A DNA stretch of 64,000 nt from Tremella fuciformis (lineage: Eukaryota; Basidiomycota; Tremellomycetes; Tremellales; Tremellaceae): NCBI GenBank assembly GCA_032768795.1, contig CP136490.1, positions 2,790,001-2,854,000 of the forward strand, in the 5' to 3' direction. The position numbers were made by a program, and so were the translations under genes. Numbering within the stretch: position 1 is the first letter of the stretch; each line of letters starts with the position of its first letter. Positions 19,634 through 56,878 of the stretch are shown here, one piece after another. The notes under the pieces were generated by a model that saw only the letters and a program-made list of their open reading frames with translations, did not search any database and was not told the DNA's origin.

Positions 19634-21791
19634 CTAGCCGATGATGGGCAACATCAAGTAACTGTCGTGCTCGCCGCCCGTGTGGATCTTGTGCACTCCT
19701 ACGTTCTCATCCTCAGGTTCCGTCAACACGCTCTCGTCGGTCTCGGGCAACGCCATCGTATGCCCCGCAACGCGAAGCATTATACCCTCTCCAGGCCCGA
19801 AGATCATCCCCATAGGCCACAGCATAATTTCGAGTGGTACGATGGTACCCTTGGGAATTGGTTCTCGTTTGTCGTGGCCATACTTGGCATCCACCGCGTT
19901 CACGTCTTTCGAGTCTGCCGGTACTAAGGTAATACGATGAGAGGCGCGCAGATACCCCTCTGGACCAAGGTATGTGGTGCTGTTGAGCTGAGGAACGCTG
20001 GATCGATCTGCAGATGCAGGGATGGGATAATTGAGGTGAGAGAGCAGTTGACCGTCGACGCTGATCTTCCGAAGCTGGACGACGATATCGAGATCATCGT
20101 TCTCATCGCATGACACCCATAACTTCACCTTAGCGTCTCCATGCATTTCAAGTCTCTCGTTGAATCGCACGGTGAAGTCCTGAAGTGTCAGCGTTGCCCC
20201 AAAATCCAAGCTGCCGCGCTCAGTGGGACGCACCGAGCTTGCGGTGAGACTGTGCCCCTCATACGATGCTATGGCATGCTTCGATGGGACGGTATTGGGC
20301 AAGGTGTGAGTCTCGCCGTCGAGGTAGTACGTTCGGTACTTTGTCTCAGGCAAGGGGTACACGTCGTACGGTCGTTCAACCACAGTCGATTCGGTGCTGC
20401 CGTCAAAGCCCAACAAGCTCACGCGGAACAGCGGAGTCTTGTCCCAGCCGTTCTGCTCGCCTTTTGCGAAGAAGTCAAAGAATTGCTGCAAGTCGTCCAC
20501 CATCTCAGGTCGATACAGGTCGTACCCTAATATCAGCCTCTTGGTCTACCCTGACGCCAAGGAGCAGCGCTCTGACGCACAGTCCTTGTAAGGGTGTACT
20601 CGCAGCCATTTGTGTTTGGTCTTTGCCTGTTCGAATCCGGCAAATGAGCCTCGGGGATGCAGCTGTGAGCTTGAGTGGATCAGCCCTACCGTCATCTTAT
20701 GAGAGACGGAAGATCTCACGAGTACGTGGCGACTTGATAAAGCGGCGTGTCGATCTTGAATGCGTTGAGCTTCTTGCTCATCCAGAAATCATCAAACAGT
20801 GGTCTAGCCCGAGCAATCGCAGATATGTCTTCGATTGTCCCCGGCCCTGCTCAGTTCAGATATCTCCTTTGTTGCATCTATCATGACTCGCCTGCGAATG
20901 TGTCCATATGCGTCTTGTGAAGCTTCTCGAGGTGCGGCCTTCCCCCTCGAGCGTACACGTGCCGATACAGGTCTTTCAGGCTATCCCACGGGGCCACGGC
21001 TTTCAGAGCAGGGTGAGAGTATCTCGAGACAAAGTTGATCTGCGGGACACCGAGCCACGAAACACCGCTGCGAGTCAGCCTCTGCACTTTCCCCTTTCAA
21101 AAGAAAAGACTGACGCCATCACGACCGCCCCCGAGGACCACTTTTGCGAGCTGATCCAGTCCAGGGTATCATATATGTCAAGCGCGTCCTATTTCCTTCA
21201 GACATCGCGACAATGCACCACGCAGGGCGGACGGACCTGCTCGCCCCAGAACTGTATGTCGCCTTCAGAATTGCCACAGCCGCGAGCATCGACATTGATC
21301 ACCGCGTAGCCGCGCTCGACCCAATCGGCAGGATCGACACCCTATCTATCAGTCCTGCCAGTCCTGGAATACGGGGGAAGGTTTACCCCAAACGTCTCGT
21401 AACCCGACAAAGTCCCAGGCGCAATACCAGACCCGTAAGGGGCTGCAGTCTTGAGGTGATACGTTCCACTGCCAGTCTTTCCATGCTGGCTCCAGACGAG
21501 CACTGCTGGGACCTGCACACCTGCACTTGCCGGCAGAAAGATGTCCGCTCGCAAAATGGTGCCGTCCCTCGTCCGGATAGCGGTGTCTCTCAGCCAAGTC
21601 GTCTCGACGTCGAAGGCCCGACTGGGTCCTTTTGGATCTCTGCGGTGTCCTACTGGTAGCTTGACTTCGGTGTCCGGGTGAAACCCATGGTATGTCCATC
21701 GCGGATGGTCTTGGGGCCGTTTGAGTGGGATCCAGGGGATATCTGGAAACGCTGCTTTCTGAGCAGCGAGCGGGTCGGCGCGGATAGTCAT
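19634..21791 (-). CDS. CocE/NonD (X-Pro dipeptidyl-peptidase S15) family hydrolase
   Basis: Seven exons (21791-21387, 21341-21237, 21188-21115, 21067-20892, 20846-20720, 20669-20581, 20526-19634) close to 622 aa. The N-terminal alpha/beta-hydrolase part has RDGTILRADIFLP, PADWVERGYAVINVDARGCG and the nucleophile elbow GVSWLG, with serine as nucleophile. A cap segment and the C-terminal jelly-roll domain follow (FTVRFNERLEMHGDAKVKLW, GEGIMLRVAGH). The family includes cocaine esterase and glutaryl-7-ACA acylase relatives; substrates are esters or amides of small acids. The intron at 20847-20891 appears to be GC-AG (donor gcgagt). Two AGCCGA elements lie upstream (21942, 21955). I count it as the left-end member of the cluster because it is an esterase and shares that motif. 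Confidence 0.86.
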
Positions 21792-22179
21792 TCTGTTATC
21801 GAAGTGTCCTCCGACTACTGGCGGCCCCGCGACAGTGACTGAATGACGAAAAGCATGTCATCTCAAAGCAGTCGAGCTAGATATACATTGTACAGTCGAA
21901 TTGCCAACAGGCAAGGGATGCCTGCCGAATGCATTGGGAACAGCCGAAGTCATTAGCCGAATACATCCCCAAACGAGCATATGGCAGAAGATGCGAAGCT
22001 CGCGACAGAATGTGGTTCATCGAATGTAGCTAAGATGCGACTATGTTGACAGCCCCGTATGCGCTGATCACGAGGACATGTTATTATTCTAAAACAATTC
22101 GATGCATGCGCAAGTCGCAAGTGCTGGCACTATGTAGTTGGCTCTAAATGCAGTAACGGAATCTCATGTAATGCGTTCG
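21792..22179. promoter_or_regulatory. CocE upstream region with AGCCGA elements
   Basis: This interval precedes the CocE gene (-) and follows the stop of the DHA2 gene on the same strand. It carries AGCCGAA at 21942 and again at 21955, and TGCCGAA at 21922, within 40 bp of each other. The tight grouping and the repetition of the hexamer in other cluster intergenic regions suggest a regulator-binding site. Confidence 0.6.
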
Positions 22180-24593
22180 TCATGCCGCGGATGTCAAGGC
22201 AGGTGTAGGAACACGTGTGGGTTCTGGATCCCCTTCAACATCCAAGTCGACGGTTTCAGGGGCGGTAACAGCTTCTGGACCAGTCGCTATGCCCTTCTCC
22301 ACGTCGGCGTCCGTGGCAGCTCCACTCTTGCCAGCTTTGCGCTCTTGTAGCCATTGCTTGGCCGCTGCCTTGCGCTCCTTGTCGTCTGCTCGCGCGAGGG
22401 AATAGTCCTTGACGAACAGTAGGACGAGGACAAATTGAAGGAAGTTGAGGCCGATCATGAGGTAGTACAGGATATGAAATCCGCTCACTGGCCGGTCAGC
22501 ACTCCGAGAAACTTCTGGAGCATTAGTCAACTGACAGTACGCGGCAATTGCCTCGGCGCGTTCGGTCGTTGTAATATCCATCGAGCGTATGCCGGTTGGG
22601 GAAGAGATGATAGCTGAGATAACACTCGACGAAACCCCTTCATTTGTCAATTTTGTTCTGAGCTGTCAGTATGAAGTGTTTCTCAAGTCCCGAAACGCTG
22701 ACCTGACGGTGTTGTTGAGCACTGCCGCGGAGCAAGCTACGGCCAAGGTGGAGCCAAACATCCGCAAGAAGTTTCGTGTCCCGGTGATTGTGGCCATTTC
22801 GCTCCTTTGTACAGCTGCTTGAATAGCTACCAAGGTGATTTGCAGGGTCTGTCCGCTTCCAATGCCGCTCAGGATCTGGAAGGCGATCAGAGAACCATTT
22901 GCTGAAGTCGCAGTCACAGTCGTCAGCAGGCCTGCTGCTATCGTCCAGATTGCATAGCCCGCGATGAGGTTGTAGCGGTACCATCCGGTTTTCGAGACGA
23001 AGAAGCCCGATGCAAACGAGGTGATGGATTGTGCCAGAATGATGGGTAGTACCGAGATACCGGACTGCATAGGGGTGTCGCCTCGGATCACCTGATAGTA
23101 TTGCGGCAGCTAGCATGCTCAGCGTCCGCTTTCTGGGTACGGTCGCAAGCAAAGGCTCACGTAGTACAGGTTGACAAATGTGGTGTAGCCCGTTAGAAAC
23201 GAGGTCACGATGCAAGTCGAGACGTGCCCGTTTTTGAAAGCTTTGACTAGCTGTAAGAGTTGTGTCTGGTCTTGTCACAACCTGACCTACGGGGCATTAT
23301 TGGAATTTTGGCGACCTTGAGCTCCACCCAGATGAAAGGCGCGATGAGGATGACTCCGATGAGTAGAGGCGCTAAGACGACGGGAGACGTCCAGGCGTAG
23401 CGGGTGCCAGCCCTGCATGTCAGCTCAGCGCTCGATGAGCATTTCACAACTTGCCAACTGATGGACAACAGGATGAGAATAGCAGAGGCAAACGCAATGA
23501 CGCTCCCCGTGTAGTCGATGCGCTTGAATTTCTCCAAGGCATTGCCTGTGACTGGGCGCAGTGGAAGTACGAGGACGGCGACAATGAAGGCACAACCTGA
23601 CAACGGCAAGTCGATGTACTGCTCATTAGGTCGACAGCTACTCAGGAACCCGCGCCAGACTTACAAAGCACCACCGCCATGTCACTTTCTCCGTAAAGAT
23701 ACCGCCAACCAGAGGACCCAAAGCAGACGCCGTCGCGACGACTGCACCGTTGATCCCCTGGTACTTTCCTCGATCTTGCAGAGTGACGACATCCGATATC
23801 ACGATATTGACCATGGTAAGAATGCCGCCACCGCCGATGCCCTGGATGGCACCTGAGCAGGTCAGCAAGGCTGGTATTTCGATGGGAGAAGCTGACGAAA
23901 AACAATAAGCTCTATGATGCTCTTCGACGTAGCACATAACGTTGCCCCCACAAAGAAGATCGCTATGCTTCCCGTGAGCATGACCTAGGCTTCAGCACAA
24001 GCATCTCGATAGGATTTTAACCCACCTTCCGACCGAAAATGTCGCTCAAACGGCCGTACAGCGGCTGACATGCCGTCGAGGTCAGAAGATAGGCAGTACC
24101 AATCCATGAGGAGATGTCGGAAGCGTGGAAATCTGTGCCAATGGTGGGAAGGGCAGTGGTGACGCTGAAAATCAGCTTGACTGTGACGACGAAGAGCATG
24201 ATCGCACTTTGTCTGATCGAGCGTTGAACCTATGAGTCAGTCAGCCCCTCTATCGAAACTCCAAGCATGAAACTGACAGAAAAGTGCTGTGGACAGGCCG
24301 AGGAAGACAATAATCAATTGTCGCGTTGGCAGCAAATTAGTCTGATCGGACAATGCATGCCGATTCGGAGTCGTTAAAGCCCCTGTTGTCGTGTCCACCT
24401 CAGGTCCAGCTGTAGCCACCGTAGGTGCTCCGACGGGGTCGACCACCTCCTGTTCTTCTTTTATCGAAGATGAATGGATGCTCGACTTTTCGATGGGGGA
24501 TTCTACAGGTGTGATAGAGCTAGACGCCACTATCCCATTGTTCAATTCGTAGTTGTCTGCCAGCGTCGGGGTGCTCGAGCGGTGTTGCGACAT
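22180..24593 (-). CDS. DHA2-family (14-TMS) MFS drug:H+ antiporter, copy 1
   Basis: A multi-exon gene starting at ATG 24593 with a hydrophilic N-terminus and the DQTNLLPTRQLIIVFLGL entry into helix 1. Later landmarks are FCSTLDQT then [37 protein letters not shown] (motif A), [40 protein letters not shown] (motif C region), WRWCF, and a late block SGVSVLP-like to [21 protein letters not shown]. The C-terminal tail is cytosolic and acidic. This is the fungal DHA2 (Azr1/Sge1/Atr1) architecture, exporting drugs or toxic metabolites at the plasma membrane. The paralogue at 50460 is similar throughout, including the early FCSTL-NQT/DQT junctions with introns at matching places. I did not place all introns (about nine). 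Confidence 0.84.
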
Positions 24594-25187
24594 CGTGCAA
24601 GCAATAGGAACGCCAAAGTGGTGTCAACGTGCTGTGAAGTCGACGTACGTCGGCATTGCCTTTCTTATGGTGTGGCCGAGGTGTGCTCTCCAACCGACTC
24701 GGCGACGTGTCCTTGCCCGAGAGACCTTTGGCCGGTAGCTCTTTTCCAGGCGATCGCCCGCGCCTGACACCATCGTTACCGGACGAGCACTGGGTTTGAC
24801 GTTTGGCGGTGCCAAATTCCTCTCGACAATTTCGGCTAGGAGAGTTCGGCAACCAGCCGAGGAAAGCCTGCCGATGAGCGAGTGTCGGCTGCACTATTCG
24901 GCCCATGCAAAGTGTAGCCCTGACTCTCTGAGTCTCAGGAAGACATTGTCATGGTACAAGCGGAGCCCACCGCAATGCTGTGGGCTTCGAGGTCCTCTTG
25001 TACTTCGCATGCCGTGCGCAGTGGACACACACCTGTCATTCATTATCTAACAAGCCAAGCGGGCGTGATGATGGGCTGCCGTAATCATTATTTGTTCCTC
25101 CCATTTTGCCGGCCCAGATTCCCTTCCGACTGAGCCATTCGCTTTGACGTGATGTATTGTGCTTGATACACCGTTCCAGAGAACACC
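24594..25187. promoter_or_regulatory. divergent promoter DHA2-1 / TF1 with AGCCGA elements
   Basis: The region separates the start codons of DHA2 copy 1 (-) and TF1 (+). It holds TCGGCT at 24832, AGCCGA at 24855 and TCGGCT at 24885, with TGCCGA/TCGGCA variants at about 24846 and 24869, all within 60 bp. Mixed orientation and close spacing are typical of zinc-cluster regulator binding regions. Confidence 0.65.
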
Positions 25188-27839
25188 ATGAGTCCCGTTG
25201 TAAGGGTGGAGAAGGACAGAAGCAGCAAGCAGCTGAAGAGAGTCAAGACCGGTGAGTTGTGTCGCGTGCGCAAGGCAAAGGAAGGTCAGACTGAAGCGTG
25301 GCATCAGGATGCTTGACATGTCGATCCCGGAAAATCAAGTGCGATGAGCAGCCAGGAACTTGCGGCAATTGTTCGAAAATGAACATCAGCTGTCGGTGGC
25401 AGCGGTCGGATGCCAGCGAGGGTGAAGGTCAGTCGTGCTCGGACCTGCGCTGTCTAGTCAGCAGATTGGCTGATGCCTAGAGGGAAATCGATCATTGAGC
25501 CCTCAGAGATATACGGACTCGTCCCGCTCACAGAGCTCGCCGAACCTGGTCAAGCCGCCTGTCAGACCATATCGCGCTCGCCATCGACCTCCGCCCTGTA
25601 ATATGTGCAGGAGCGTCAGGAGCAAGTGCACACAGGAAAGACCGGGCTGTGCAAGGTGTCTCTCGCTCAATATCCAATGCAAATATCCTACGCCTGCCTT
25701 GACCTTCCAGTCTCCGCCCGAGGACGTAGGGCAAGGCTCTGGACCCCAAGTGACTCTCCATACAGACGACATGTACGTGGGCAACCACAATCCGATAGTG
25801 CCGGAACCGGAGATCGTCGCGGAATCTAGCGCACAAGGGTCGTATCCGCGGAATGATTCCGAGCAGACAGCTATCCGGTGAGCCCTTGTCCTGATGCTGC
25901 TCGGACCCCGACTTAAGACTAGGCTTCTGCTTCCTTCGACAGAAAGAATCGAGGAGTTGATACTTGCCTTCTTCACTTTCATCGCGCCCTATGAAGCCAA
26001 TGCCTTCATCCGGAAAGGTCCATTCGTCGAATCAGTCAGGACAGGCAAAGCACCTTCAATGTTGTTGGCCGCGATGTGTGCCGTGTCCGCCCCATTCGTC
26101 GAGCCTCCGGAAGCTCCCGCCACTGCCGACACATGGGCCACGGCGGCGGGTCGGTGTTGGTGGAATATGAAAAGGGAGCAGGGTCTGGAGACCGTGCAGA
26201 CTGCTCTGTTGCTCAACCGATACTACTCGTATACCGGCAATTTCACTGTCGGACAGATGTGGTGCGTCCTCGCCAACCGGCAGGCCATCGGTCTGGGATA
26301 TCACCGACAAACACGAAACGATCTTAGCAACTTGAACTGGGCTGTGGCGGAGGAGCGACGGCGCTTGTTCTTCGCTTGCTATTGTATCGACCGAAGAACG
26401 GGAAACGGTACTCCGGAGCTCACCTTCTGTCCCGCCAATCGGATCAAGCTAGCCCTCCCATGTGACGACGTCAACTTTAGAATGGGCATACGTGCGGACA
26501 CTCCTCAAGCTATTCTCGAGGGTGACGAGAGCCACGTGTTGTCATGGCCCATGGAAGAAGTCGGTTTGTTGGGCTACTATATCCGCCTGGTTGGAATCCG
26601 TTATACCGTCAAACAGTGCGCCTCCGCACATTCTGACCGTAAGACGCTTATCAGATAGGTGTCACCGCGCGATGCTCGAAGACAGCGAGCTTGGCGGTAT
26701 CTTAGCTCCGTGGGAGTCCAGCTCGATGTTTCAATGCTGTCTCCGCAACCTCGCGGCTTTTCGTCAATCCATCCCGCCTCGGTACTCTTTATCACGAGAG
26801 GCAATCAGCTCGAGACAAGATTCACCTGACCTGCCGGCGTGCATCATGCTCCATCTCTGGCTGGACATGTGCTACATTGAGCTCTATCGCACCGTCACTC
26901 CCGGATATCCAGAATCCCTCGATGAACATATCAACCCCATGCTGGCGCCTGCCGGGTGGATGCAGGAGGCACAGCACGCCAGTCTACATCACGCGCAGTC
27001 TATCTCGAACATATTCAATCTGGTGGAATCGTCGCTGTCCTCGGGTCACGCCTTAACCGTCGCGGATCACAGCTTGCCGTACGTTGTGTACTCGTCGATC
27101 CGACTGCAAATGGAGGCGGCGGCGATCTCTCCCCACGGCGGACAGCATCTGGAAGAGACTTTCAAGATGATGTTGGCGTACGTACAGCGTACTGGAAGAT
27201 ACATTCCGCTTGCAGGATTGGTTGTGAGATTGGCGTTACGAAAGATTATGCCCAGCTGATGAGGTGCAGGTCAAGGAGGTACGCAAGATGTTGAGAAGAA
27301 AGGGCTATTTCCCCACCGAGACAGGTCCAGAATCGTACGTACGGTCTGCATGTTAGGAATGGATCGCTAATCTGTAGAAGGGCACCCAGTCCCCCTCACC
27401 TGTGGTTCAGGCGGCAAAGAGATGTTGACGCGCGGCGGGACACCACCAGTCCGGCTACCAGTGACGCCATCTATCAGGATATCTTCAGCCTCATTACGGC
27501 CGAGCCAGGTGCCGCATCGTGGAACTCGTTCTTTGACATGCCCTCGTTCGACGTGATCAATTTCCCATCGACTGCGTGGACGACGGCTGACAGCAGTTCA
27601 TGCCGGCGGACAACAGTGGCCCCTCCTTCGGCATGACTGTGCCTTCGGGTGGAAACATGCCTCTATGGCAGGACAAGACACCTCATAGTGCGGCATTCAC
27701 CCAAAGCCTCCCATCCTTGGTCGTGGATCCTAGTCCCCCCTTGATGGACAATTTGTACGCACAGCACCGGGGCAATGGCAATACGGTCAATACTCTCCTA
27801 CCAGACTCGTCATTCCTCAACTCGGGATTCTCGAGATAG
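25188..27839 (+). CDS. TF1: transcription factor with two tandem Zn2Cys6 clusters and a fungal_trans domain
   Basis: Eight exons (25188-25251, 25308-25427, 25481-25877, 25923-26615, 26659-27223, 27264-27334, 27378-27552, 27597-27839) close to 775 aa. Zinc cluster 1 (about residues 22-50) reads GCLTCRSRKIKCDEQPGTC...CSKMNISC. Cluster 2 (about 95-125) reads CNMCRSVRSKCTQERPGC...CLSLNIQC. Both have exact C-x2-C-x6-C-x6-C-x2-C-x6-C spacing and an RSRK/RSVR-type basic loop. The middle-homology (fungal_trans) region contains WCVLANRQAIGLGYHRQT and FFACYCIDRRTGNGTPE. The intron splitting the glycine codon before the first cysteine is at the same place in TF2 and TF3. Zn2Cys6 factors bind CGG triplets, which the recurring TCGGCT hexamers contain. 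It is a nuclear regulator, probably of this cluster. Confidence 0.9.
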
Positions 27840-29582: not shown

Positions 29583-29992
29583 TTGCCTGGTAGCGCCTGG
29601 GTACTCTGACGGTGAATGCTCTTGACTGTGATTCTATGTCTTTTGAGGCATTGGATTCCACCACTAAATACGGACTCAGCATGACGGCGGATCTATCGGA
29701 AATGAGAGCATCTGCCGAATGTCTGCCGCCCTAGCCGAACGATGGTGGTTTCGGCTGTATCGACCTCGCGAGAAGCCTGGTTCATGACCCGCATGGAGCG
29801 ACAGCATCCCTGCTGTCGCGGCTACACGTCAGACATGCAGGACGCTGGACCCGTCCAGGACAATGTCAGGGGCGGTGGTGTAAACGCGAAAGCGTCATGT
29901 CGGGGTAGAGAGATCTTGAATCAGGTTTCTGACGGACGTTGAGGGGTTCAAAGTGTGATGCCATGCTGTAACTACCTATGTTTCTAGGGAGC
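29583..29992. promoter_or_regulatory. CE1 promoter region with AGCCGA elements
   Basis: The interval lies upstream of CE1 and downstream of CE2, both on the minus strand. AGCCGA stands at 29733 and TCGGCT at 29751, with TGCCGA at 29713, all about 130-170 bp before the CE1 start codon. Confidence 0.6.
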
Positions 29993-31992
29993 TCACTTGA
30001 GAGCTTCTATGATTTTCATGAACCTATCCCACCTCTTATCGTCCACCACCTCAATCACCCCCTCAGCTGACAGTCCCCTGAAGTAGCTTGGCTTTTCCGG
30101 GATGTCGTCGTGCCACCAAGTTTTAGCGGCACCGGTGACATCTCCTTCTAAGAACAGCTTGACGGGACGTAGCCAAGCACCAGCAATTGCGTCGTCTTCA
30201 GGACTGAACCCAAGATGCTTGGAGTAGCGCCCTTTTCTTCTTGAGCAATGAATCTAGACAAGGGGGATACAGGAAGCTCACAGGTGTAACTATCGTCGTC
30301 GTGGGTGACCTTCCCACTAAAGGATCAGCCAAGCGGGCCCGGGGCTGTTCGTGTGTGATGACTTACTGAGGGGCAAGTGAGAGTTTGTCCGTTGCGTCCG
30401 GTCGCCGAGCAATACGATAACGCAGCACACGATCCATCCTTACGCCGTGTTGAAAGAGGGAGTTGACGAAGGATCGACTGGGCACGTACACCAGACCGTC
30501 CGTCACGCTATGCGAGAAAACGCTGAGGATGGCCCCCTGGTGTTCCGGATTGGTCTCATCAAGTGGTTGGGGTAGTTGATACTCCGGTACGGTCAATCCC
30601 GGCATACTCCTGATTTTGTCTATGTATGACTGCGGGTAGTAATTTTGGAGCTCTTCCAGCATCCCCTTGAGCGTATTTGGGGCATTTCGCATCGAATACT
30701 TGATCCCCTGTAGGTGTCAATGAAAGCATACAGTAAATTTTTCAAGGCCTACCTCGTGTGAGACCTCGCCAATGATTAGGCCGATATCCCGCTTCGCAAA
30801 CTCTCGGGCGAAATGGCCATCTTGAATGCGGGCATACGTGTCCAAGTGAACAAAAGTGCCGTCGGAGACAGGTCTGAAGTCGTGTAGCTTCCTTATCGTC
30901 AGGAATCCCCACACCTGAGGGATGTACTCGACTGACAATGTCTCAGCAGCATGGAGTAGGTCCGATACTGGCACCTCCCTCAACCGATCCAGCCTCTTCG
31001 CCGGGCTAGTATCCTGTGGAATCCCCAAGGCCAGAGTGAGCTGGTCAAACCCTTGCTGCGCCTCCTCAACCGACTTCGGCTGGCAGGGCAACGAGTTTGA
31101 TATCTGCATGACCCGCTTGATGAGGGATTTGACGGGGAAATTGATTTCGTGAGCCAATTGCAGCTGTGCAGCAGCAGCTCCCGATCCTGAGCCGCCCAAG
31201 GTGATGTTGCCTGGGTCACCCCCAAAGATGGAGATATTCGCTGCGGTCCACTCAAGTGCGAGGCGTTGACTGATAGATCAGCTCAACGAAGCTTGAGCAC
31301 TGGGCGTGGCGCACTCGAGGAGACCGAAGTTGCCAGTGGGCTCGAGCGCACTCGACGACAGAAAGCCCTGGGTGTTGAGGTATTTCTTCAGAGAATGGGG
31401 ATCGCTCACGAGTACACCCAAACGGTATTGAACGGCAACGATGACAACCTGCAATATGAGTGACTGACCTTCTCCGAACTCGCGGACGCCCACATCGATA
31501 TTGGCACCCCGAATAATACCAGATGGGTCGGAGCCCTCGGTGACCAGCGGATGACCAATCTTGGACCATCCTCCGTGAAGCCAGACGAGGACGGGCCAGC
31601 CCTGCTTGGACGGCTCAGTGACGGGAGTCCATATGTTGACTATCAAAGCGCCCTCGGCCTGCTCAACACCGTCAACATGACTGGTGAGCTTGACAGCGCC
31701 CTCTCTGCAATGAGTTCATTTCGGGCAGGAGATTGTGGAGCAGCACGAACCGCTTGAATTCGGTTGTAGGTTGAGGAGCAATCGGACCGTATGCCGTTCC
31801 GTCCACATCGTTCCAAGGATAATCATCTGGCAAGGCGACCGGGGCCCTCCAGCGCAGGTCCCCCACCGGGGACTGTGCGTACGGTACATTGAGGAATCTC
31901 CTGTACCTCGCTACTCCCGCTGCGTTGCTTGTCACTGTCCCAGTAATCTGTCCATGAGGACCCGCTGGGACGGTGACTTCTCGAGCTTCCAT
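29993..31992 (-). CDS. CE2: divergent carboxylesterase-fold protein, nucleophile serine replaced
   Basis: A spliced gene starting at ATG 31992. The N-terminus (YRRFLNVPYAQSPVGDLRWRAP, VNIWTPV, VLVWLHGG) and FGGDPGNITLGG are type-B carboxylesterase signatures, but the elbow reads GGSGSGA where the family has GESAGA, so the nucleophile position is glycine. The acid (IIGEVSHEG) and the histidine (KVTHDDDSYT) are still present. Introns were placed after TEFKRF, in GLLD, after VSHE and after LAP. The last junction near 30258-30285 does not close cleanly, so a small frameshift or an unusual intron is possible there. It is more distant from CE1/CE3/CE4 than they are from each other. It may be a non-catalytic binding protein, use a shifted serine, or be a decaying gene. 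Confidence 0.7.
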
Positions 31993-32527
31993 GTCAGATT
32001 GAAGCCCTCGTGCAGTAGGATAGCTTACAGCTCATGACCGTGGCCTGCCTTGTCGTGAAGGTGCACCTTGGAGCATTCACAAGCGTCAAACGCGCAAGTC
32101 AAGCCGACCGTGCCATATCAGCTTCAGCAGCCGTTCGAAGCGCGACTGAGTTCGCCTACAATCCAGATCCGAAAGTAACAAGGCGAAACAGCTTGATGTC
32201 AGTCTCGCTAGCCGAAATGGCAAATGGGCCAGACCCGGCGCCTTCGACAGTCAAGTCAGCCGAATATGCGTTGTCGCCATTGCCGAAATGCCTCCTGGCC
32301 TGACCGTCCCGCGGGGCCGCTGTAGGGCCAAAGACGGTGCTCCAGGCTAGGCGAGATGACGCCTCACTGCGGCTTGGACATGTGCCGAATGCGCGTGGGT
32401 TTGTACTCCGCTCTGCATCGTTCATCTACATAATCTCAAGAGATATGCCTCGACTCGGTGTAGACTCCCCAGCTCCCGCTTCGGATTGTCAACAGCGCAC
32501 CGCTACTCGGGCAAACACACATCCAAC
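31993..32527. promoter_or_regulatory. divergent promoter CE2 / SP1 with AGCCGA elements
   Basis: The region between the start codons of CE2 (-) and sugar permease SP1 (+) holds AGCCGA at 32102, 32210 and 32258, and TGCCGA at 32281 and about 32383. All are in the same orientation, pointing away from CE2. Confidence 0.62.
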
Positions 32528-35903: not shown

Positions 35904-36107
35904 GCTTGCTGGAATGGAAAGCGAGTTGTCGCGACATTCGAGTAGTCCCAACAGTGTAGGCTATATGCAGAAGCAGTAAGACCAGCAAGCGAGCCGACTC
36001 GGCTAGTCGGCTGTATTGGCAAAAGGCAGCATTAATTTGGAGAGTCATTGCGTGAGGCTACGAGATGGGACAGCACGCATGCAACGGCACATATGCAACA
36101 GCGATGG
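35904..36107. promoter_or_regulatory. Est1 promoter with a dense AGCCGA/TCGGCT palindromic cluster
   Basis: AGCCGA at 35992, TCGGCT at 35999 and TCGGCT at 36007 sit within 21 bp. The first two are inverted and one base apart, which makes a near-palindrome; the third repeats the second after two bases. It is the tightest cluster of the element in the window, 90-110 bp before the Est1 start codon. Confidence 0.65.
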
Positions 36108-39375: not shown

Positions 39376-39626
39376 AGGGCAGATCACCTAGTCCAGTAGT
39401 TAGGGATGTCGTGACCATGCATACTCCCTGCCGGTGAAACCATAGGCCATTCCAATTTCGCCTATTCTAGGCGGCCGTCGGCTAAGACTCGGGCTTGTGG
39501 GCCAAGCTATGGCGACTTGCCTCATGGCGCTCTGCAGTCAGAGATGGGCTCCACATTCAGGTCTCCTGGCTGCCCTGCACCCAGAAGTTGTCATTGACAG
39601 ATGTTCCAATTCAGCACCTACCGACG
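39376..39626. promoter_or_regulatory. TF2 upstream region
   Basis: The short gap between CE3 and TF2, both on the plus strand, carries one TCGGCT at 39478, about 145 bp before the TF2 start codon. The element in front of a regulator gene would allow autoregulation. Confidence 0.5.
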
Positions 39627-42324: not shown

Positions 42325-42528
42325 GAGATTGCATTTGACAGGTCCATGCATTCGTCGTCTGCTGTACAATTGATACTTCTTTCGCGAGGTCGCATTTCGG
42401 CTGAGTCAAATGTAGCCGCTCATCGCCTAAGTGTGACGTATCATAAACGGGCGGGATGGTAATATTCGATTGACGGCCGACCTCCCTTCCTCCTGTAATC
42501 TACAACTCAGCTGCACAAGAAAGCAGAA
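42325..42528. promoter_or_regulatory. Est2 promoter region
   Basis: About 200 bp between TF2 and Est2 on the same strand. TCGGCT stands at 42397, with an AGCCGC near-match at about 42414. The pyrimidine-rich stretch before the Est2 ATG probably belongs to its 5' UTR. Confidence 0.5.
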
Positions 42529-43605
42529 ATGACGGTTCTTGACACCACAGAGGGCTCAGCGGGAGAAATCTGGCCGCCCCTGCCTCGCGATGAAAGTGAG
42601 AACAACATCCGTGCCTCCAGTGCTGACAGGGCAGAGTTCCTGCCTTTTACACTACCTCCAGGCGCCGCAAATCAGATGTGGATCGATACCGAGTTGACGG
42701 GCCTGCCGGATGAGATAGACTTCGCCCTCTATCCTCAGACCACTCGCGGGGCCGATGCCCAGGGATCGTATCTTGTACGACTCCCACCCGATTATTACAC
42801 GAAAGGAAAACGATACCCGGTGATGTACTGGCTGCACGGCGGTCTATCAAACTCTCGCCAAGCGCAGTGGCCAATGCAATTCTATGCCAAGAAGATGAAT
42901 GACTTCATCACACGCAAATTCATCATTGTTGCTCCTCAGGTCAGTCGCATTTGGCTTTTTGTCCCTGGAATGGGGGGAAGGCCGCGATGCTGAGCTACAG
43001 ATACTGCCTCAGGGCCGTTTCATGGATTCTCGTGACGGGGACCGACCGTTGGGGACTATTTTTGTCCGAGATCTTATCACCGCCGTTGACGCACGGTACA
43101 ATACAATTCCGCATAGGACGGCTCGGTGGCTGGAGGGTTTTTCGATGGGCGGGTCAGTCCTCGCTTACAGTATCAGAAGCCTTGGAACGCTGAATCTCGC
43201 AGCTATGGCGCTCTCCATCTCGCTTTCAAGCATCCCGACCTCTTTGGCGCGGTGTCGGTGTTTGCCGCCGGCTTGATATGGAAATACGACGAAGAGAACG
43301 CGCATTCGGTGACCGACACATTCGCGGGCGACGTCCAGTACTACAACGAGTCGCACCCTTATACCCTTGCCGGCGCGAATCAAGAGAAATTGCGAGACAT
43401 GGCGATACGTATCGTGTGGGGAGGCGATGATACTCGGTTGAAGGGCGGCAGCCAGCGACTTGCACAGAGACTGGAAGAGCTCGGGTTGAAGGTGCAGTCG
43501 CAAGAGGTCGAAGGGGTGGGTCATATTTACCCCCCATTGCTAGCAGCTCTCGGCCCGAGCGCCTGGCAGTTCTGGGGCGATCTTCGGGAGAAAGTGGTAG
43601 AGTGA
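42529..43605 (+). CDS. Est2: PF00756-type alpha/beta-hydrolase esterase
   Basis: Three exons (42529-42939, 43001-43152, 43203-43605) give 321 aa. It is a paralogue of Est1: GEIWPPLP, ANQMWIDTELTGL, YPVMYWLHGGLSNSRQ, FIIVAPQILPQGRF, the elbow EGFSMGGYGAL (nucleophile serine), WGGDDTRL (acid) and GVGHIYPP (histidine). No signal peptide is present. Both intron positions match Est1, so the pair arose by duplication after the introns were gained. The predicted role is cytosolic hydrolysis of an imported ester. It converges on SP2. Confidence 0.88.
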
Positions 43606-45781: not shown

Positions 45782-46226
45782 GGCTACTCCCAGTAATAAT
45801 CTCGGAGAGTCAAGTAAAGGGAGATGTGCTGTCACCACCGACCGACCTCCCGCTCTCGGCTTATATCATTTGCGACACAGTGCTTCGAGCATCAGTGAGA
45901 AGAGTCGCATACTTCTGCGCTATCCGACGGTCGCCAGGGGTCCCGCGGTGCCCCATCGAGGCTCATGGGTCCTTCGGCGTCGAGCGTTGAAGAATAGCAG
46001 CCGATGCCATTGCAAAGAGGCGATTTGGCAGCCGATGCGAAGCAGAAAAGGGGGTTATAGGCGGCCAGCCGATGCTCGGCTGGTTCAGTCGAGACGACTC
46101 TTGCAACCGAGGTCAGCCGGTCCGGACGACCGCAAGCGACCATAGGAGAGTGGATTCAGTGCTTGACTCGCATATGCAGCAAATACCGTACTGTAGCTTC
46201 ACCTTTCATGAGCCACCTACGCAAAC
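45782..46226. promoter_or_regulatory. divergent promoter SP2 / alcohol dehydrogenase with AGCCGA elements
   Basis: Elements stand at 45999 (AGCCGA), 46030 (AGCCGA), 46077 (AGCCGA) and 46086 (TCGGCT). The last two form an inverted pair three bases apart. Three of the four continue as AGCCGATGC, a longer shared core. Confidence 0.65.
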
Positions 46227-47873: not shown

Positions 47874-50206
47874 TCACGATTGCGCTCCAACAATCTGCTC
47901 AAATGATGCCAGTGCTGGCACAGTCCATCCTCCCATTGTTCCGGTAGGCAAGAGCGTCTCCTGTATCTGCACATCAGCCTGGCTCACAAGACCTGCTACT
48001 CTCACATTCGGTGCGGCTCGCTGCACCGACTCTTCGAGACACGTCGGCAAGCCGGCTGCGGCGAGCCAGGCGGCGATGTCATCGTCAATGGGGAATGGGT
48101 TCTCTGCAGGTGCGATCTCGGGCAAAGTCCCGAGCAACAGGCTTTGCAGGAGCTCGTCGGCTATCGACGGTGATACTTCGGTCTGTCGGCTTCCATCAAT
48201 TGCTCTTTGACGTATGAGCCAAGGGTGTTGAGGCGTCTCGGCGCGTCTGATATAAGCGAGGTCCTTGATGGATCGCTTGCAACTCACGACTCATTTCCGA
48301 GATCGAAGAGCCCATGCTTAGCCAGCAATTTCCGTATCTCCTTCAGCTACTCATGAGCTGAATCTTTATAGCAGGCCGATACTTACGACAATGTAAGCGG
48401 TACGAAAGTACTCGCTCAGGCGGACGACATAGCCAATCATGACGTCGAACATGTCGGCCGTCGCCTGGGTACCAAGAAGCTCGAGCTGTATTCGCACAGA
48501 GGTGTATACCACGCGTGGCAGGGAGTGGTCAACGATGAGCGTGTTATCGGCCAGACACAGCAGCTCCCGGATAGCCCGTGCGTGATTCAGGCAAGCATCC
48601 CGCGCGTGCTGGAGCCAGTCTTCAGGGGCTTCTGCAAGCATGTGCTCGCTGAGAGACTCGGGGTAGCCGGCAATAGCCATTCGATAGAGCTCGACATGGC
48701 AGGAGTGCCATCGGACCGAAAACATGATGCGCGGGCCCAGCACGTCCTTGTGCGACTTTGTATACGTGTCGAACCTCATGCGAACAGGAAGGCTATGATT
48801 AATATGATCGAGCTTCCTGAGACATGTGTTGAACGGCGACTGCGGCGACCACGGTTCCATACCTGGTTTGCGAATGCCATTGTTGAGGTCAAATTGGTAA
48901 CGCTTCATGTAGAAGCGCGCTCCCACGAGGCGTATGTAGAACCCCATGGCGCCGACGTTGCTGTACATCCAAGGTGGAAAGTCGGGTTCTTCCCCATCTA
49001 ATTGTGCGTCCGGCGTTTCGCACGGCAGCCCAACGCAGAAGTTGTAACCTTCACAAGGCAACCGCAACTTGACCCGGTCTCCGTTGCAATAAACAGTCTC
49101 TGGACTGCCGTCTGAAATATTGCGCTCCAGACCATAACACGCGAAATAGAGCCGCCTGTCTGCCTCGGCGTCCACCCATGAGCGCGTTTCTGTGATCGGA
49201 GATTCCCGATGCAGCCCAAGGCTAAGAGCTTGTCGATTGGCGATCGCACACCAATTGTGAGAGGAGGGGAATCGCCCAGAGTAAGATGCGTGGATGGCGA
49301 GGAGCAATGCGGCCTTGACGTTATCTCGGGACGCGCAGTTCGAGTCGAGTACCAAAGTTGACGCTTCCTTCGCCCAGCGGTCGGCGTCGTCCTGAGATGT
49401 TCTCGGCCGGGTGAAGCGAGCTCCGACGCTGCACAGGGCAAGTAGCACGGCCGGCACCATCCGATCTTCCGCTAACGCGAGGAAGGTAGCATCTCGATGC
49501 AGGAACGCATGGTACTGATAGGGATGGACGTGTGTGAAGAATACAGTACACAGGGCGACGCGTGCCCCGATGGGCGGCAATGCCAAGCCAGACGAAGCAA
49601 GGCCTGGCCCGACCGCATGCCCCCATGGACTGGGCGTGATCGTCAGCTCCGAAGCGAGAGGCGGCGCAAGTGCGGGCGCCAGGGCTGGGGGTGGGATAAC
49701 AGTGGAGCTGAGCATGCCTTTTGCAAGGGGTGATTGGGTAACACCTTGCGGTGCGGGCGAGGTCGATGATCCGGCCGCAGTGTAGCGACAGGGAAGCTTG
49801 TACAGGTAACATCGGTCGCATGTCGGGCGATTCTGAGAGCATTTGGCTCGCGCTTGTCGACAGGTCAGGCAGGCGATCGGACGGCGCACAGCCTGGACCG
49901 GTGAATCTGCAATGAGGATCGATAGATGGGCTTGATTGTCTACGTTGTACTCACAAGAGGATGAAGTCTCTGATCCCGGTCCAGCCCAGCGACATTCGGC
50001 CCCGACATTCTCACATTTGGTGCATCTTCCCGGCCTTTCGTCACATCTGAGATCAATAAGGACGCCCATGATGGCTCTGAAGGCCGGCTCACTTGACTTT
50101 TCGTGCGCGGCACGTCAGGCAGCCTCACATTCAGCATGCTCGGCGACTGGCATCAGACCGGGGATCGCTCACCTGTCCTCACACGACGTTTGCGGGTAGT
50201 ATCCAT
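47874..50206 (-). CDS. TF3: transcription factor with two tandem Zn2Cys6 clusters and a fungal_trans domain
   Basis: Six exons (50206-50173, 50123-50093, 50046-49955, 49906-48387, 48346-48288, 48246-47874) close to 702 aa. Zinc cluster 1 is GCLTCRARKVKCDERPGRC...CENVGAEC, split by an extra intron inside KVK|C; cluster 2 is CLTCRQARAKCSQNRPTC...CYLYKLPC, with the same spacing as in TF1 and TF2. The middle region has HNWCAIANRQALSLGLHRES and YFACYGLERNISDGSPETVYC. The 48-nt intron 49907-49954 is a multiple of three without a stop, so its removal is inferred from the splice sites and the paralogues. The C-terminus is about 75 residues shorter than in TF1 and TF2. It is divergent from DHA2 copy 2 with four hexamers between. 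Confidence 0.88.
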
Positions 50207-50459
50207 GTCGAATCGGCTGGGGAGTCGGCTGGACGATGACGAGGTGTGCATGTATGACTTGTAGCTTGGCATATAGGGCATAGACTGCGGAGTGATGACC
50301 GCGGGGCGCTGTCTAGCCGAAACACATGTTGCTCGGCAGGAGTTGTCGGCTACGTGGGCCTTGGCATTATTTCGTCAGAGGGCGACACATTCTTTTCATC
50401 AGTGGGGATAGGTGGTGCTTCGACGGTTTGATCAATCATTCTCTTGCATACTGCAAGTC
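50207..50459. promoter_or_regulatory. divergent promoter TF3 / DHA2-2 with AGCCGA elements
   Basis: Only about 253 bp long, the region holds TCGGCT at 50213 and 50225, AGCCGA at 50315 and TCGGCT at 50346: four elements, the highest density among the divergent promoters. The first lies 7 bp from the TF3 start codon. Confidence 0.65.
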
Positions 50460-52602
50460 ATGTCGAAGTCAGCTCCCAAGGCGAACTTGAGATCGGAGAA
50501 TGGATACTCACCAGAATTTGATGAAGGCGACATAGCTGTTCTCCCGGCGCAGGCGAAGGGCGAACCACCATCAGAGACGGTGGCACCCGATGTCGTCGAG
50601 CTGCAGACTCGCCCGATCTTGCAGGATCAGACAAACTTGCTGCCAATGCGTCAGCTGTTACTAGTCTTTGCGGGACTGAGTTCCGCTATGTTCTGTGGGT
50701 ATCAGCTTGAACGTCGAGGTATTCACGCTGATCTCAGGCTCGACCTTGAATCAGACGATGTGAGCCGTTTTTCACGCCTAGCACATTCATCCTCACCAAA
50801 GCGTCTCTACTGCCCTTCCGACTCTTGGTCGAGTGTTCAACGATGCAACGCTGGCAACTTGGGTCGGCACGGCGTATCTGCTGACCAGTACCGCTTGTCA
50901 GCCACTCTACGGACGCTTGAGCGATATCTACGGTCGCAAGCTCATTCTCCTCGGGAGTCTCCTCCTCTTCTTGATTGGAACGGCCCTCTCCGGGGCGGCG
51001 ATCGACTTGCCGATGCTCATAACGGCGCGTAAGTAGAGCGTGACACTTTGGCGATACGCTGAGAGCGCAGGTGCGATTGGCGGGATCGGGGGTGGCGGAA
51101 TCATTACCATGGTCAACATTGTCATTTCCGATGTCGTCTCCCTCCAAGATCGCGGCAAGTATCAGGGAATCACCGGCGGAGTCATTGCCGTCGCAAGCGC
51201 ATTAGGGCCGCTCCTCGGCGGTATCTTCACCCAGAAGGTGTCATGGCGGTGGTGTTTTGTGAGTCCGACTGGGGTCGGGGCAGGAGGATCGCCCTTATAA
51301 CAGTACATCAACTTGCCGCTGACTGTTGGATCGATAGGTATCGTCTCCTTCGGCCTGCCTTTTAGGCGTGTGGAAGGCAATCACCTCCAGAAGCTCAAGC
51401 AAATTGACGGGATTGGGTGCATGCTGTCCGTCGTCGCAACAACGTTGATCCTCATCGCTGTCTCATGGTGGGTCTGGAATATTGTGGAAGGCCTTGGTAG
51501 ACCGCAGGGCGGGTTCCACTTATGCTTGGTCATCTGTTGCCGTGATCGCCCCACTTGTGCTCGGCGCCGCGCTCATCGCGGTCTTCATCGTCTTTGAGTG
51601 GAAGTTTGCCAAATTGCCTTTGTGCGCAATAAGACTGAACACGAGGTTCCAGACCTTGCTGACGTCAGGATCCCGATGCACGTCTTCAAGAATGCTCATG
51701 TCTCGACTTGCATCTTCACCTCCTTCTTGACCGGCTTCTGCAACTTCGTCAATTTGTACTATGTGGGTGTTGTGAATGAACAGAAAGGCACTAAGCTCAT
51801 GTTAGCTCCCGCAATTCTACCAAGTTGCCAAGGGCGATTCTGCCTTCCAGTCGGGCGTGCTCATTCTGCCCCTCATCCTCTCGCAGATCGTCACTTCATT
51901 CTCATCGGGCTACCTCGTGTCCCGATTTGGGTGCTACCGGATCCAACTGATTCTCGGCTACGCGCTATGGACAGTGGCATCCGGTCTATTCACCACCGTC
52001 ACGCCGAAGACGTCAAACGGTCTGCTCGTGTTCTACCAGCTACTCACCGGTCTGGGGTGCGGCCAGACCACTCAGATAACCTTGGTCGCCATCCAAGCGG
52101 CAGTCAAGCGGAATGAAATGGCGGTGACGACCGGCGCACGGAACTATCTCCGCCTGCTCGGCTGCACCCTGGCGGTCGCCGCGACCGGCACGATCATCAA
52201 CAATGTTGTCAAGTACGCTTCTTCACTCTTAAACCTGCAATGCTATGCTGACTCCAGACGCAAGCTCGAGTCACTGGATTTCTCAACGGCAAGCATCAGC
52301 TCAATCGTCGCCGATCCGAGCCGCATTACCTCACTGGGTCTCAGTGCGGCCCAGCAGAGCGAGGCCATCGCTGCCTACGGTCAGTACCAGGTAGAAAAAG
52401 GCGAGCCGCTAATCCAGCAGCCCACGGCGTGCAAGTGGTGTATTACATGATGATCGCGCTCACAGCCGTGCAATTCTGGCTGTGTGTTATATTCGTCAAA
52501 GACTACTCACTGAAAAGAGAGGACGACGAGCAGCAGAAAGCCGAAGCCAAAGCGCGTCTCGCCGAAAAGAAGCGAAGAGCGAGGGCTGAGGAGAAGGTCT
52601 GA
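50460..52602 (+). CDS. DHA2-family (14-TMS) MFS drug:H+ antiporter, copy 2
   Basis: The start is ATG 50460; about nine short introns were resolved, including 50695-50737 and 50760-50801. Landmarks are [63 protein letters not shown] (motif A), [25 protein letters not shown] (motif C region), WRWCF, and [22 protein letters not shown]. The C-terminus is a charged Lys/Glu coil. It matches DHA2 copy 1 along its length. The role is export of a toxic substrate or intermediate across the plasma membrane; such a pump often accompanies catabolic or secondary-metabolite clusters. It is divergent from TF3. Confidence 0.86.
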
Positions 52603-52610
52603 AACCGTAG

Positions 52611-52680: not shown

Positions 52681-53031
52681 TGATTGTAGAATACATCCCC
52701 ATGTTGATACACACTCGATCAACGCCTCGGCTGTGGTAACTCTGGATGGTCATGATCTCAGTCGAGAACCGGTGTACTGTAGATTGCGAAGGGGTCACGC
52801 AGCTCCATGCTTTGGCCTCTTGCGAAGCACCCGTGTCGCGAGCCTGTAAGGCCTGATCTCTGAGAAGGAACAGAAGGGCAGGCAAAGCCGAAGGCTCTAG
52901 GACGACTCGCCGAACAGATATGCCCCTTTCAACTGACTGCATCGATAATCGCAAGAACTGGGACCTCTCAGAATCAATACCACTGCACACCCATTTGGAA
53001 ATTCCGAACAAGTTATTTGTGATGCCGACAA

Positions 53032-54833: not shown

Positions 54834-55181
54834 TGTGTTGTCCTGGCTAGTGGGGTCTATTTGGGGCACCGATCTGTCCAGAGGACTCCATTATGTACCC
54901 CGCGGAACGAATCATCGCTGTCAGCTGACTCGTGAGATCTCACATTGGGGCTGGATTCCTGGCGACCGTTCCGTAGCCGACTTGCAGGCGAATATCAAGA
55001 CCAAGTAGCCGAGACGTCGTAATAGCGTACTCCAGCCGAGTGTACTGTAACCGACCGACTGCATATGTATCGGCATGGGCCAGCATCTGCAATGCTTCGC
55101 TGCACCACAATGAGCCCCATCGCTGTCTCGACCTCAAGCTCGTCGGCCACGACTTCGTCAAACAGATTGCACGTCAACAAG
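54834..55181. promoter_or_regulatory. divergent promoter SP3 / CE4 with AGCCGA elements
   Basis: AGCCGA elements stand at 54975, 55007 and 55034, spaced 32 and 27 bp and all in the same orientation. The even spacing is close to three helical turns, which would place them on one face of the DNA. Confidence 0.63.
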
Positions 55182-56878
55182 ATGCCTCAGCCTGTCGAGG
55201 TCACTGGGGGTCTCATCCAGGGCGTTCCGAGTCCCATCGCTCCAGGCGTCACAGTCTACAAGGGCGTTCCCTACGCTGCGCCGCCCGTCGGACGCAATCG
55301 GTTCATGCCGCCTCAGCCTGTGATCCCCTGGGAAGGCGTCAAGATCTGCGATACGCAAGCACCTATCTGCCCCCAGGCAGGACCCGACCCGCGCTACTTC
55401 AACACCCTCAAGGGTGTACCCCAATCCGAGGACTGCCTGTACATCAATATTTTCGTGCCGGACCCAGTCAAGTATCCCGGGCCGAATCCTGTCCTGGTCT
55501 GGCATCATGGCGGAGGGTACCGTGAGGGTGGGAGTGCAGACCCAAACTTTGACGGAACCGGACTAGCCATGAAGGGCGTTGTAGTTGTCGTGCCCTGCTT
55601 CCGTCTATGTGAGCGGTGTGCATTGATGCGCGAGGCAGCGCTGATGGGATAGCCATTTTCGGTTTCTTCGCTCATCCTGAATTGAGTGCAAAGTGGCCGC
55701 ACGGCGGGTCAGGCAACGCTGGCTTGTACGACTGCCTTGAGAACTTGAAGTGGATTCAGGCCAACATCGCAAAACTAGGCGGTGACCCAAAACGTGTCAA
55801 CATCTCTGGTCAATCGGCGGGTTCGGCCAAGACACACATCTTGCTCTTGTCACCCCTCACGAGAGGCCTGATCCATGGAGCGATCATCCAATCCGGGGTG
55901 CGATCACCGACAGAGCCGGCCATCAGTAATTCAGCGGCCAGCTACCGCCCGCTCGCGAAAGCCGAGGCGGAGGGCGTGGCGCTCCTCGCTGAATTGGGCC
56001 TGTCCTCGGTTGAGGAGTTACAAGACCTTGACGACATTGACAAACTCACGCAACTCTCGCTGAAGCGGGACACCACTCTGTGGGGACCGCCTCCGTTCTT
56101 CCGGGCAGTCATGGACGGCCATCTGTTCACTCAGAAATACTACACAACCTACACCACGCAGCCGCCTAACGACATCCCGATCATGACTGGTCAGAACCGT
56201 GACGAGGGTGGTGTCTATAATGAGCCCCGCTTCACTGCCGAGGACTTTGACGAATGCATCGAGCAGCGAGTCGGTCCCAACGCCATCAATGGCATAGGCT
56301 CCGAGGCCAACGTCCGCCGTTTCCACGAGATCTACCCCTTGCCCGACCGGGAGACTGGCAAGGGTCCGCTTACTGCATGGAACGACTCGGCTCGCGACCA
56401 CACAAGGATCAATATCTCTCTATGGTCCAAATACTACAACCTGCATAACAAGAGCCCCGTCTATGGTTACTACTTCACGCACGAGCCGCCGAATTGGCTT
56501 GGTTTCAAACACGACTACTCCAAACCCAAGGTCCCCGGGTTCACAAACGGCAAGGGCCCTCTCTTTGGCTCGTACCATTCTGCCGAATTTGCCTACACAT
56601 TCAACAGCTTGATCACGAACCAAATCAGACCTTGGACCGACGACGACCGAGTGGTGGGAGACAAGGTTTCGACATTGTGGGCCAACTTCTGCAAGTATGG
56701 CAACCCCAACGGGGTCGGTGACGATGGGAGACCGGCGGGTGTGGCCGAGTGGAAGCCGCTTTCTGAACGGCCGGACGAGTTGTTGGAACTTGGTGGAGAC
56801 TTTCAGCCGCTCAAGATCGCCGCGCCGGAAGCCATCAAATTCTGGACCGAGCTCATTGATCAACAGGAGCCCTGGTAG
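55182..56878 (+). CDS. CE4: type-B carboxylesterase
   Basis: Two exons (55182-55608, 55653-56878) give 550 aa from MPQPVEVTGG, which matches the start of CE3. An in-frame ATG at 55065 would add a 39-residue Ser-rich extension. Landmarks are YKGVPYAAPPVGRNRFMPPQ, EDCLYINIFVP, WHHGGGY (intact oxyanion hole), LGGDPKRVNISGQSAGS with the nucleophile serine, TGQNRDEGG (acid) and GSYHSAEFAYTF (histidine). No signal peptide is visible. The 44-nt intron is at the CE3 position and phase. It marks the right end of the cluster as I define it; the next ORF is unrelated and lacks the promoter element. Confidence 0.92.

Follow-up and report, generated by a model that had tools for sequence, protein, structure and literature searches.

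Within a 64,000-nucleotide stretch of the Tremella fuciformis genome (contig C1, positions 2,790,001-2,854,000, in an assembly of 28.1 Mb and 11 contigs; hereafter the window) lies a run of 17 genes for esterases, transporters and regulators, and the question raised by this locus is whether these genes work as one unit and, if they do, on which substrate. We computed the gene content of the run, the paralogy among its members, a promoter word that they share, the recurrence of their families elsewhere in the genome and the nesting of one enzyme, W17, among bacterial sequences. We judge it slightly better than even that the 17 genes constitute a single co-regulated catabolic cluster for sugar or sugar-acid esters or lactones.

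An intron-aware gene finder, trained on this stretch and on other stretches of the same genome, placed 17 gene models between 19,634 and 56,878 of the window and no further model of at least 100 amino acids there, in agreement with the 17 consecutive genes proposed by a first-pass annotation made from the sequence alone. Pfam searches of the 17 proteins (W18, W21 and W26 were scanned by their largest exon only) returned one S15+PepX_C hydrolase, four COesterase proteins, two PF00756 esterases, one MR/MLE enzyme, one ADH_N+ADH_zinc_N dehydrogenase, three Sugar_tr porters, two MFS_1 proteins and three Fungal_trans proteins with two Zn_clus stretches each. Every family named in the first-pass annotation agreed with Pfam, including the three regulators with two Zn2Cys6 clusters each, and two of its labels need qualification: the two proposed DHA2 exporters are MFS_1 proteins by Pfam, DHA2 being that annotation's own term, and one of the four proposed type-B carboxylesterases, W14, is diverged and carries Gly for the catalytic Ser. 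Transporter, regulator and enzyme genes are physically adjacent across the whole run, with no unrelated genes between them. Several are paralogues at 48-54% identity (W21/W25, W11/W24, W16/W20 and W13/W18/W26), and the sugar porter W15 is merely 26-27% identical to W21 and W25. No polyketide synthase, nonribosomal peptide synthetase, terpene or similar backbone synthase family was found among the 17 genes by Pfam, as had been stated of polyketide, peptide and terpene synthases at first reading, and for this reason a biosynthetic (secondary metabolite) cluster was set aside.

The promoters of the cluster share a short word. Promoter regions were taken to be the cluster's 11 non-convergent intergenic stretches, a non-redundant set of 3,650 bases that replaced counts of gapped CGG dyads in which divergent regions had been counted twice. 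When 33,206 trinucleotide dyads were compared between the cluster and 29 flanking regions, the top dyad was AGC-CGA, with 29 copies spread over 11 of 11 regions and 1.27 expected; of 35 flanking control regions (17,444 bases), 5 contained AGCCGA, with 7 copies in total. Dinucleotide shuffling of the cluster regions, repeated 500 times, gave no more than 8 copies of AGCCGA and no more than 15 of any 6-mer, and when 11 control regions were drawn at random 500 times, the best 6-mer reached 13. Counting all intergenic DNA gave 32 copies in 5.1 kb of the cluster versus 8 in 24.5 kb of the C1 flanks. The word was not concentrated in the coding sequence of the cluster, and no copy occurred at its edges, that is, in the intergenic DNA before W27 on the right and in the gap between the NUDIX gene and W10 on the left. 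C or T was preferred before the site, giving YAGCCGA, or TCGGCTR. We looked for a fixed spacing or orientation of neighbouring sites in the cluster and found that both vary. The cluster contains six direct close pairs (one of them in coding sequence) and five inverted ones, with 0.27 and 0.13 expected, respectively. The places of paired sites considered lie on C1 and on part of C2. Of the close pairs listed on C1, 69 are direct and 36 inverted, and the 37-kb cluster is the densest 37 kb of that contig, with 11 close pairs and 4 in the next best place among the matches listed. TCGGCTR is the candidate element through which the regulators W12, W19 and W23 most likely act.

The zinc-cluster exons of these three regulators had been overlooked by the gene finder and were joined by hand from upstream frames, after which the GT-AG introns were checked. 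This moved the start codons of W12 and W19 to 25,188 and 39,627, respectively, and all 29 AGCCGA sites remain outside both genes after the correction. W12, W19 and W23 each carry two complete C-x2-C-x6-C ... C-x2-C-x6-C motifs ahead of Fungal_trans. The genome holds ten relatives of these regulators, with two zinc clusters in 8 of 8 examined, and among 20 database relatives, some of them partial sequences, 11 had two complete motifs, 6 had one and 3 had none. The relatives named come from Cryptotrichosporon, Cutaneotrichosporon, Phialemonium, Xylariales, Aspergillus, Sporothrix and Penicilliopsis, W19 being close to a Cryptotrichosporon protein. Since two motifs are widespread among the relatives, the double domain is a trait of the wider family and not of this locus. 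In the regulator tree, W12 branches away from W19 and W23.

Smaller modules of the same families were found by BLASTP among the predicted genes of the same genome. One on C2, 10.5-33.7 kb from the contig end, comprises two carboxylesterases, two sugar porters and one regulator, with unrelated models interspersed. Another, on C3 (2,630,253-2,641,087, about 30 kb from the end), unites five of the cluster's families: a carboxylesterase 49% identical to W18, a sugar porter (Sugar_tr) 25% identical to W21, a PF00756 esterase 40% identical to W20, a regulator 44% identical to W19 and an exporter 52% identical to W24. On C4, at about 2,456,000-2,462,000, a carboxylesterase (66% identical to W18, in a fused model) and a porter (64% identical to W21) have another gene between them, and a carboxylesterase and a porter also occur on C3 at about 779,000. 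The promoter-type regions of these modules, which had not been used to find the word, held 30 copies of AGCCGA in 9 of 12 regions (6,538 bases), and the 17 copies counted in 24 other regions off C1 (12,367 bases) would lead one to expect about 9.0 in the modules (p about 3e-8). Outside the window, 7 of 21 COesterase loci lay at most 10 kb from a W25-type porter (0.45 expected, p about 2e-4), and 2 of 7 W19-type regulators at most 10 kb from a carboxylesterase (0.09 expected, p 0.004); for the porters, 80 of 177 candidates were scored, and the sizes of five contigs were guessed for these proximity statistics. A genome search with PF00083, in which 9 of 438 candidates were scored, was not used. 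On contigs of known size, 8 of 18 carboxylesterase, 8 of 24 porter and 4 of 6 regulator loci lay at most 100 kb from a contig end, where about 5% would be expected.

Two further places are recorded here as observations in their own right. At C3:98003-101396 lies another W20-type PF00756 esterase, the fourth, with a W25-type porter alongside and a Fungal_trans gene nearby; this is likely a further module. On C1, the 0.87 Mb from about 2.23 to 3.10 Mb contains 12 of 93 Fungal_trans rows (3 are the cluster's own) plus several carboxylesterases and sugar porters, a content as if an old chromosome end lay inside the contig.

The class of substrate is suggested by W17, an enolase-superfamily enzyme that is single in the genome but for three partial matches of 31-42% identity. 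W17 is 68-80% identical to the best 120 of the proteins scored, which include bacterial, Penicillium and Saitozyma sequences, and the Joint Genome Institute often names its relatives D-galactarolactone cycloisomerase. In a tree of 54 rows, W17 grouped with Saitozyma (95/90) and all eight fungal rows fell into one 13-row clade (99/96), which was nested among Pseudomonadota at successive forks with 94-100% bootstrap, except one of 84. Its best PDB match, at 333 bits and over the full length, was 4ggb/4hpn, listed as 'uncharacterized', which we take to be the galactarolactone cycloisomerase of Agrobacterium tumefaciens; to that extent W17 resembles a member of the A. tumefaciens pathway, with metal and acid-base residues conserved. 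The aligned residues K-x-K, D, E, E, D, H and E presumably correspond to the K-x-K motif, the D/E/E metal ligands and the H-D dyad of 4ggb. The second PDB match, 5olc, is called galactonate dehydratase, and two bacterial relatives have an SGL-type lactonase, an oxidoreductase and sugar ABC-transporter parts as neighbours. Among NCBIfam models, 14 were matched by W17 and none reached its cut-off. All in all, the most likely substrate of W17 is a sugar acid or the corresponding lactone, and W17 is a likely case of a bacterial sugar-acid enzyme incorporated into a fungal unit under local regulation. The lactonised sugar acid put forward as substrate in the first-pass annotation gains some support from the PDB matches and the bacterial neighbours, although these do not fix the substrate itself.

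As for the carboxylesterases, the GxSxG nucleophile and the Glu and His of the triad are all present in W13, W18 and W26. W14, only 26-32% identical to these three, has the nucleophile elbow GGSGSGA, with Gly where the others have Ser; its codons are contiguous in the DNA, and Glu and a His are retained. W14 may be inactive or altered, a possible pseudoenzyme in the midst of esterases whose triads are intact. The copies of this genome are spread over more than one clade of the carboxylesterase tree (grouped together in 0% of 200 bootstrap replicates), and simple local duplication is therefore not the whole story.

The first-pass annotation had called for a check of orthologue positions, and its outcome, judged from locus tags and equal contig sizes, was divided: a regulator-esterase pair looks conserved in some ascomycetes, and W17 and a carboxylesterase lie apart in Saitozyma podzolica. 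A homologous Fungal_trans protein appears to stand beside a homologous carboxylesterase in Phialemonium thermophilum (VTK73DRAFT_2367 and VTK73DRAFT_2368) and in Sporothrix bragantina (SBRCBS47491_009300, whose record lacks a complete zinc cluster, and SBRCBS47491_009301), pairs recognised by their consecutive locus tags. In Xylariales sp. PMI_506 and Aspergillus phoenicis, regulator and carboxylesterase are on contigs of equal size (3,447,220 and 588,961, respectively), which suggests that they share one contig. The C2 pair of T. fuciformis, both members being gene-finder models, groups with Phialemonium in both trees, its regulator as sister to Phialemonium plus another Sporothrix protein (98/97) and its carboxylesterase as sister to that of Phialemonium (99/99). 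The simplest reading would be that the pair moved between phyla; with few basidiomycete sequences compared, loss elsewhere is an alternative. For W17, a protein near-identical to the W17-type protein of Saitozyma JCM 24511 (P0001) and a carboxylesterase (P0157) come from contigs of equal size (56,591), which suggests that their genes are neighbours. In S. podzolica the W17 orthologue EHS25_007305 and the one listed carboxylesterase, EHS25_007127, have distant tags on contigs that differ in size, and the latter falls in another subclade. The 17-gene block as a whole is probably not widely conserved.

From this material we infer the substrate class, the order of steps, the location of the hydrolases and the binding of the regulators to the element as follows. 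The three sugar-type porters would import a sugar or sugar acid in ester or lactone form, which intracellular hydrolases (the three type-B carboxylesterases with intact triads, the two PF00756 esterases and the CocE-type hydrolase) would split. W17 would dehydrate or cyclo-isomerise the released aldonate or aldarate, or its lactone, and so feed the sugar acid into catabolism, W22 would oxidise or reduce the released alcohol or aldehyde, and the two MFS exporters would expel the leaving group or excess product. The paralogous dual-zinc regulators would switch all cluster promoters through YAGCCGA (TCGGCTR), an element enriched in the promoter regions of the smaller unlinked modules too. Hydroxycinnamoyl aldarates, for example feruloyl-galactaric acid, can be named as a concrete candidate for the substrate. 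This is a long shot; the use of such a compound would call for an esterase of this kind and an aldarate step, and one study reports that feruloyl-galactaric acids make up 40-50% of the phenolic acids of orange by-products (PMC8158112).

Among the matches listed, the open-access literature held no recognisable description of a fungal cluster of this composition or of a fungal galactarolactone cycloisomerase, in line with the first-pass statement that no described fungal cluster of this kind was known to it. In Cryptococcus, primary metabolic gene clusters with transporters and Zn2Cys6 regulators are reported to be enriched near telomeres, and exchange between subtelomeric and central regions was proposed (PMC8022950). 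The present cluster is like these in joining transporters to Zn2Cys6 regulators and, set against their content and enrichment as described there, differs in its three dual-zinc regulators, its repeated esterases, its bacterial-type MR/MLE gene and a word that marks unlinked modules too. The oxidative galacturonate pathway of A. tumefaciens is reported to include galactarolactone cycloisomerase (PMC6353982); unlike that pathway, the cluster holds no dehydratase/decarboxylase or semialdehyde dehydrogenase family by Pfam. In Aspergillus niger, the galactarate-induced genes tested include an MR/MLE gene and a zinc-binding alcohol dehydrogenase, both of which have a parallel in the cluster, whereas none of the 17 genes belongs to a family matching the three genes reported as required there (adenylating reductase, aldo/keto reductase and flavin adenine dinucleotide oxidoreductase), and the table of selected genes in that study shows no esterase, unlike the esterase-rich cluster described here (PMC5153877).

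Other readings of the locus have to be weighed against this scheme. The best PDB match of W13 is a fumonisin B1 esterase (8s6d, 184 bits), W24 also matches the trichothecene pump model TRI12 (54 bits, above cut-off), there are two exporter-like proteins, and exporter and esterases recur together in the C3 module. These would suit a detoxification regulon in which the esterases inactivate acylated antifungal or mycotoxin-like compounds, MFS pumps expel them and the sugar-type porters serve other solutes. We consider this unlikely: W13 scores nearly as high against unrelated esterases (176 bits and below), a detoxifying set would not be expected to include three sugar porters and an MR/MLE enzyme of the sugar-acid type, and fumonisin degradation needs a carboxylesterase plus an aminotransferase, a family that Pfam did not find among the 17 genes. 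The accessory catabolic cluster suggested at first annotation is supported by the shared promoter word, the recurring modules and the lack of a backbone family, and its detoxifying variant is kept as a rival. Improbable as well, in our judgement, is that independent nutrient modules of porter, esterase and regulator were parked together, with three regulators that each govern their own subset of genes for a substrate of its own and with one ancestral element common to all. The paralogue sets are old (48-54% identity), C2 and C3 carry smaller sets, and there are three regulators, not one, with W12 branching apart, all of which that reading accommodates; against it, the same word stands in all 11 promoter regions whatever the gene family. 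Lastly, the loci of COesterase proteins, porters and regulators are enriched near contig ends, and repeat and long terminal repeat (LTR)-element genes start 4-6 kb right of the cluster, as might be expected if common accessory families had accumulated by chance in a subtelomere-like, repeat-rich region. The concentration of the promoter word in the 17 genes, its absence from both edge regions and the consecutive regulator-esterase tags in distant fungi disfavour this reading, which we hold to be very improbable.

Several results weigh against the co-regulated catabolic cluster itself. By Pfam, no SGL, aldolase or semialdehyde dehydrogenase family is present among the 17 genes, and the galactarate-induced MR/MLE gene of A. 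niger is reported to be dispensable for galactarate use (PMC5153877). The bacterial SGL neighbours of W17 relatives suit a lactone cyclo-isomerase no better than an aldonate dehydratase, and the NCBIfam model that W17 matches best, arabinonate dehydratase, is reached at a score far short of its cut-off. Xenobiotic esters are an equally possible substrate of the esterases, and the basis for placing the hydrolases inside the cell is a crude look at the hydropathy of their N-termini, of which that of W13 is the most hydrophobic. Genome-wide counts of paired sites gave no general excess: inverted pairs fell below the reversed control (78 versus 115 per strand), and for direct pairs that control is uninformative, AGCCGA reading identically backwards. 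Since there is no genome-wide excess of inverted pairs, the word alone does not define a regulon. In the modules, AGCCGA is missing from 3 of the 12 off-C1 regions, including the upstream regions of both the C3 carboxylesterase and the C4 porter, and the other off-C1 regions have 1.4 copies per kb versus 0.4 in the C1 flanks, so that part of the module contrast, about elevenfold against the C1 flanks and about threefold against the 24 off-C1 regions, is regional background.

The positions of the cluster genes and of the promoter sites are collected in Table 1. To the left, the five scanned of nine models are WD40, PBDC1, MFAP1, DUF1996 and NUDIX proteins by Pfam; the DUF1996 gene (window 16296-17775) lies slightly left of the cluster and adjoins the NUDIX gene. 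To the right, W27, without a Pfam match, is followed by another gene without a Pfam match (window 61241-62947) that is a dispersed repeat with 17 genome copies, 86-98% identical over the main stretch. Further copies of this repeat adjoin the C3 module and, on C7, separate a carboxylesterase from a dual-zinc regulator, and outside the window 4 of 16 copies lie at most 20 kb from a COesterase locus (0.39 expected) and 2 of 16 at most 10 kb (0.21 expected). LTR-retroelement genes then extend from window 62980, about 6 kb right of the cluster, to about 23 kb past the window end; one chromodomain-type model and one copia-type open reading frame were scanned, of five long models. Such a block may mark a centromere or what was once a subtelomere.

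Table 1. Genes of the cluster and AGCCGA sites in its promoter regions (window coordinates; aa, amino acids)
Feature	Position	Strand	Basis
W10, CocE/NonD-type hydrolase (S15 + PepX_C), 604 aa	19634..21791	-	Pfam; NCBIfam CocE/NonD above cut-off; best PDB 3ib3
AGCCGA x2, upstream of W10	21942..21960		
W11, MFS_1 exporter-like, 622 aa, 54% identical to W24	22180..24593	-	Pfam, BLASTP
AGCCGA x3, between W11 and W12	24832..24890		
W12, regulator TF1, Zn2Cys6 25310-25393 and 25597-25680, Fungal_trans	25188..27839	+	
W13, type-B carboxylesterase, 558 aa	27936..29682	-	best PDB 8s6d, fumonisin B1 esterase
AGCCGA x2, upstream of W13	29733..29756		
W14, diverged carboxylesterase, GGSGSGA codons 31196-31176	29829..32035	-	
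AGCCGA x3, between W14 and W15	32102..32263		
W15, sugar-type MFS porter, 558 aa	32528..34516	+	Pfam
W16, PF00756 esterase, 293 aa	34796..35903	-	Pfam
AGCCGA x3, nearly abutting, upstream of W16	35992..36012		
W17, MR/MLE (enolase superfamily) enzyme, 387 aa, intronless	36108..37271	-	
AGCCGA x2, between W17 and W18	37374..37543		
W18, type-B carboxylesterase, 559 aa	37654..39375	+	Pfam, triad check
AGCCGA x1, upstream of W19	39478..39483	-	
W19, regulator TF2, Zn2Cys6 39734-39817 and 39940-40023, Fungal_trans	39627..42324	+	
AGCCGA x1, upstream of W20	42397..42402	-	
W20, PF00756 esterase, 315 aa, 48% identical to W16	42456..43605	+	Pfam
W21, sugar-type MFS porter, 548 aa	43970..45781	-	Pfam
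AGCCGA x5, between W21 and W22	45856..46081		
W22, zinc alcohol dehydrogenase, 360 aa	46227..47630	+	Pfam
W23, regulator TF3, Fungal_trans; first Zn2Cys6 50121 to about 49990, intron-split; second 49871-49788	47874..50206	-	
AGCCGA x4, between W23 and W24	50213..50351		
W24, MFS_1 exporter-like, 584 aa; lower-scoring TRI12 match as well	50460..52602	+	Pfam
W25, sugar-type MFS porter, 542 aa	53032..54833	-	Pfam
AGCCGA x3, between W25 and W26	54975..55039		
W26, type-B carboxylesterase, 574 aa	55110..56878	+	Pfam, triad check

A wider proposal, which we advance tentatively and hold at clearly less than even, is that T. fuciformis possesses a genome-wide regulon of import-then-hydrolyse modules under dual-zinc regulators and repeated TCGGCTR, that its regulator-esterase core moved between Ascomycota and Basidiomycota, and that the 17-gene cluster captured a proteobacterial enzyme, which would yield an acylated aldarate or lactone route. 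What the locus offers is a set of ordinary families that become a testable regulon, with a regulator family that has an unusual double DNA-binding domain, a candidate site and several promoters, and a regulator-enzyme pair seemingly common to two phyla.

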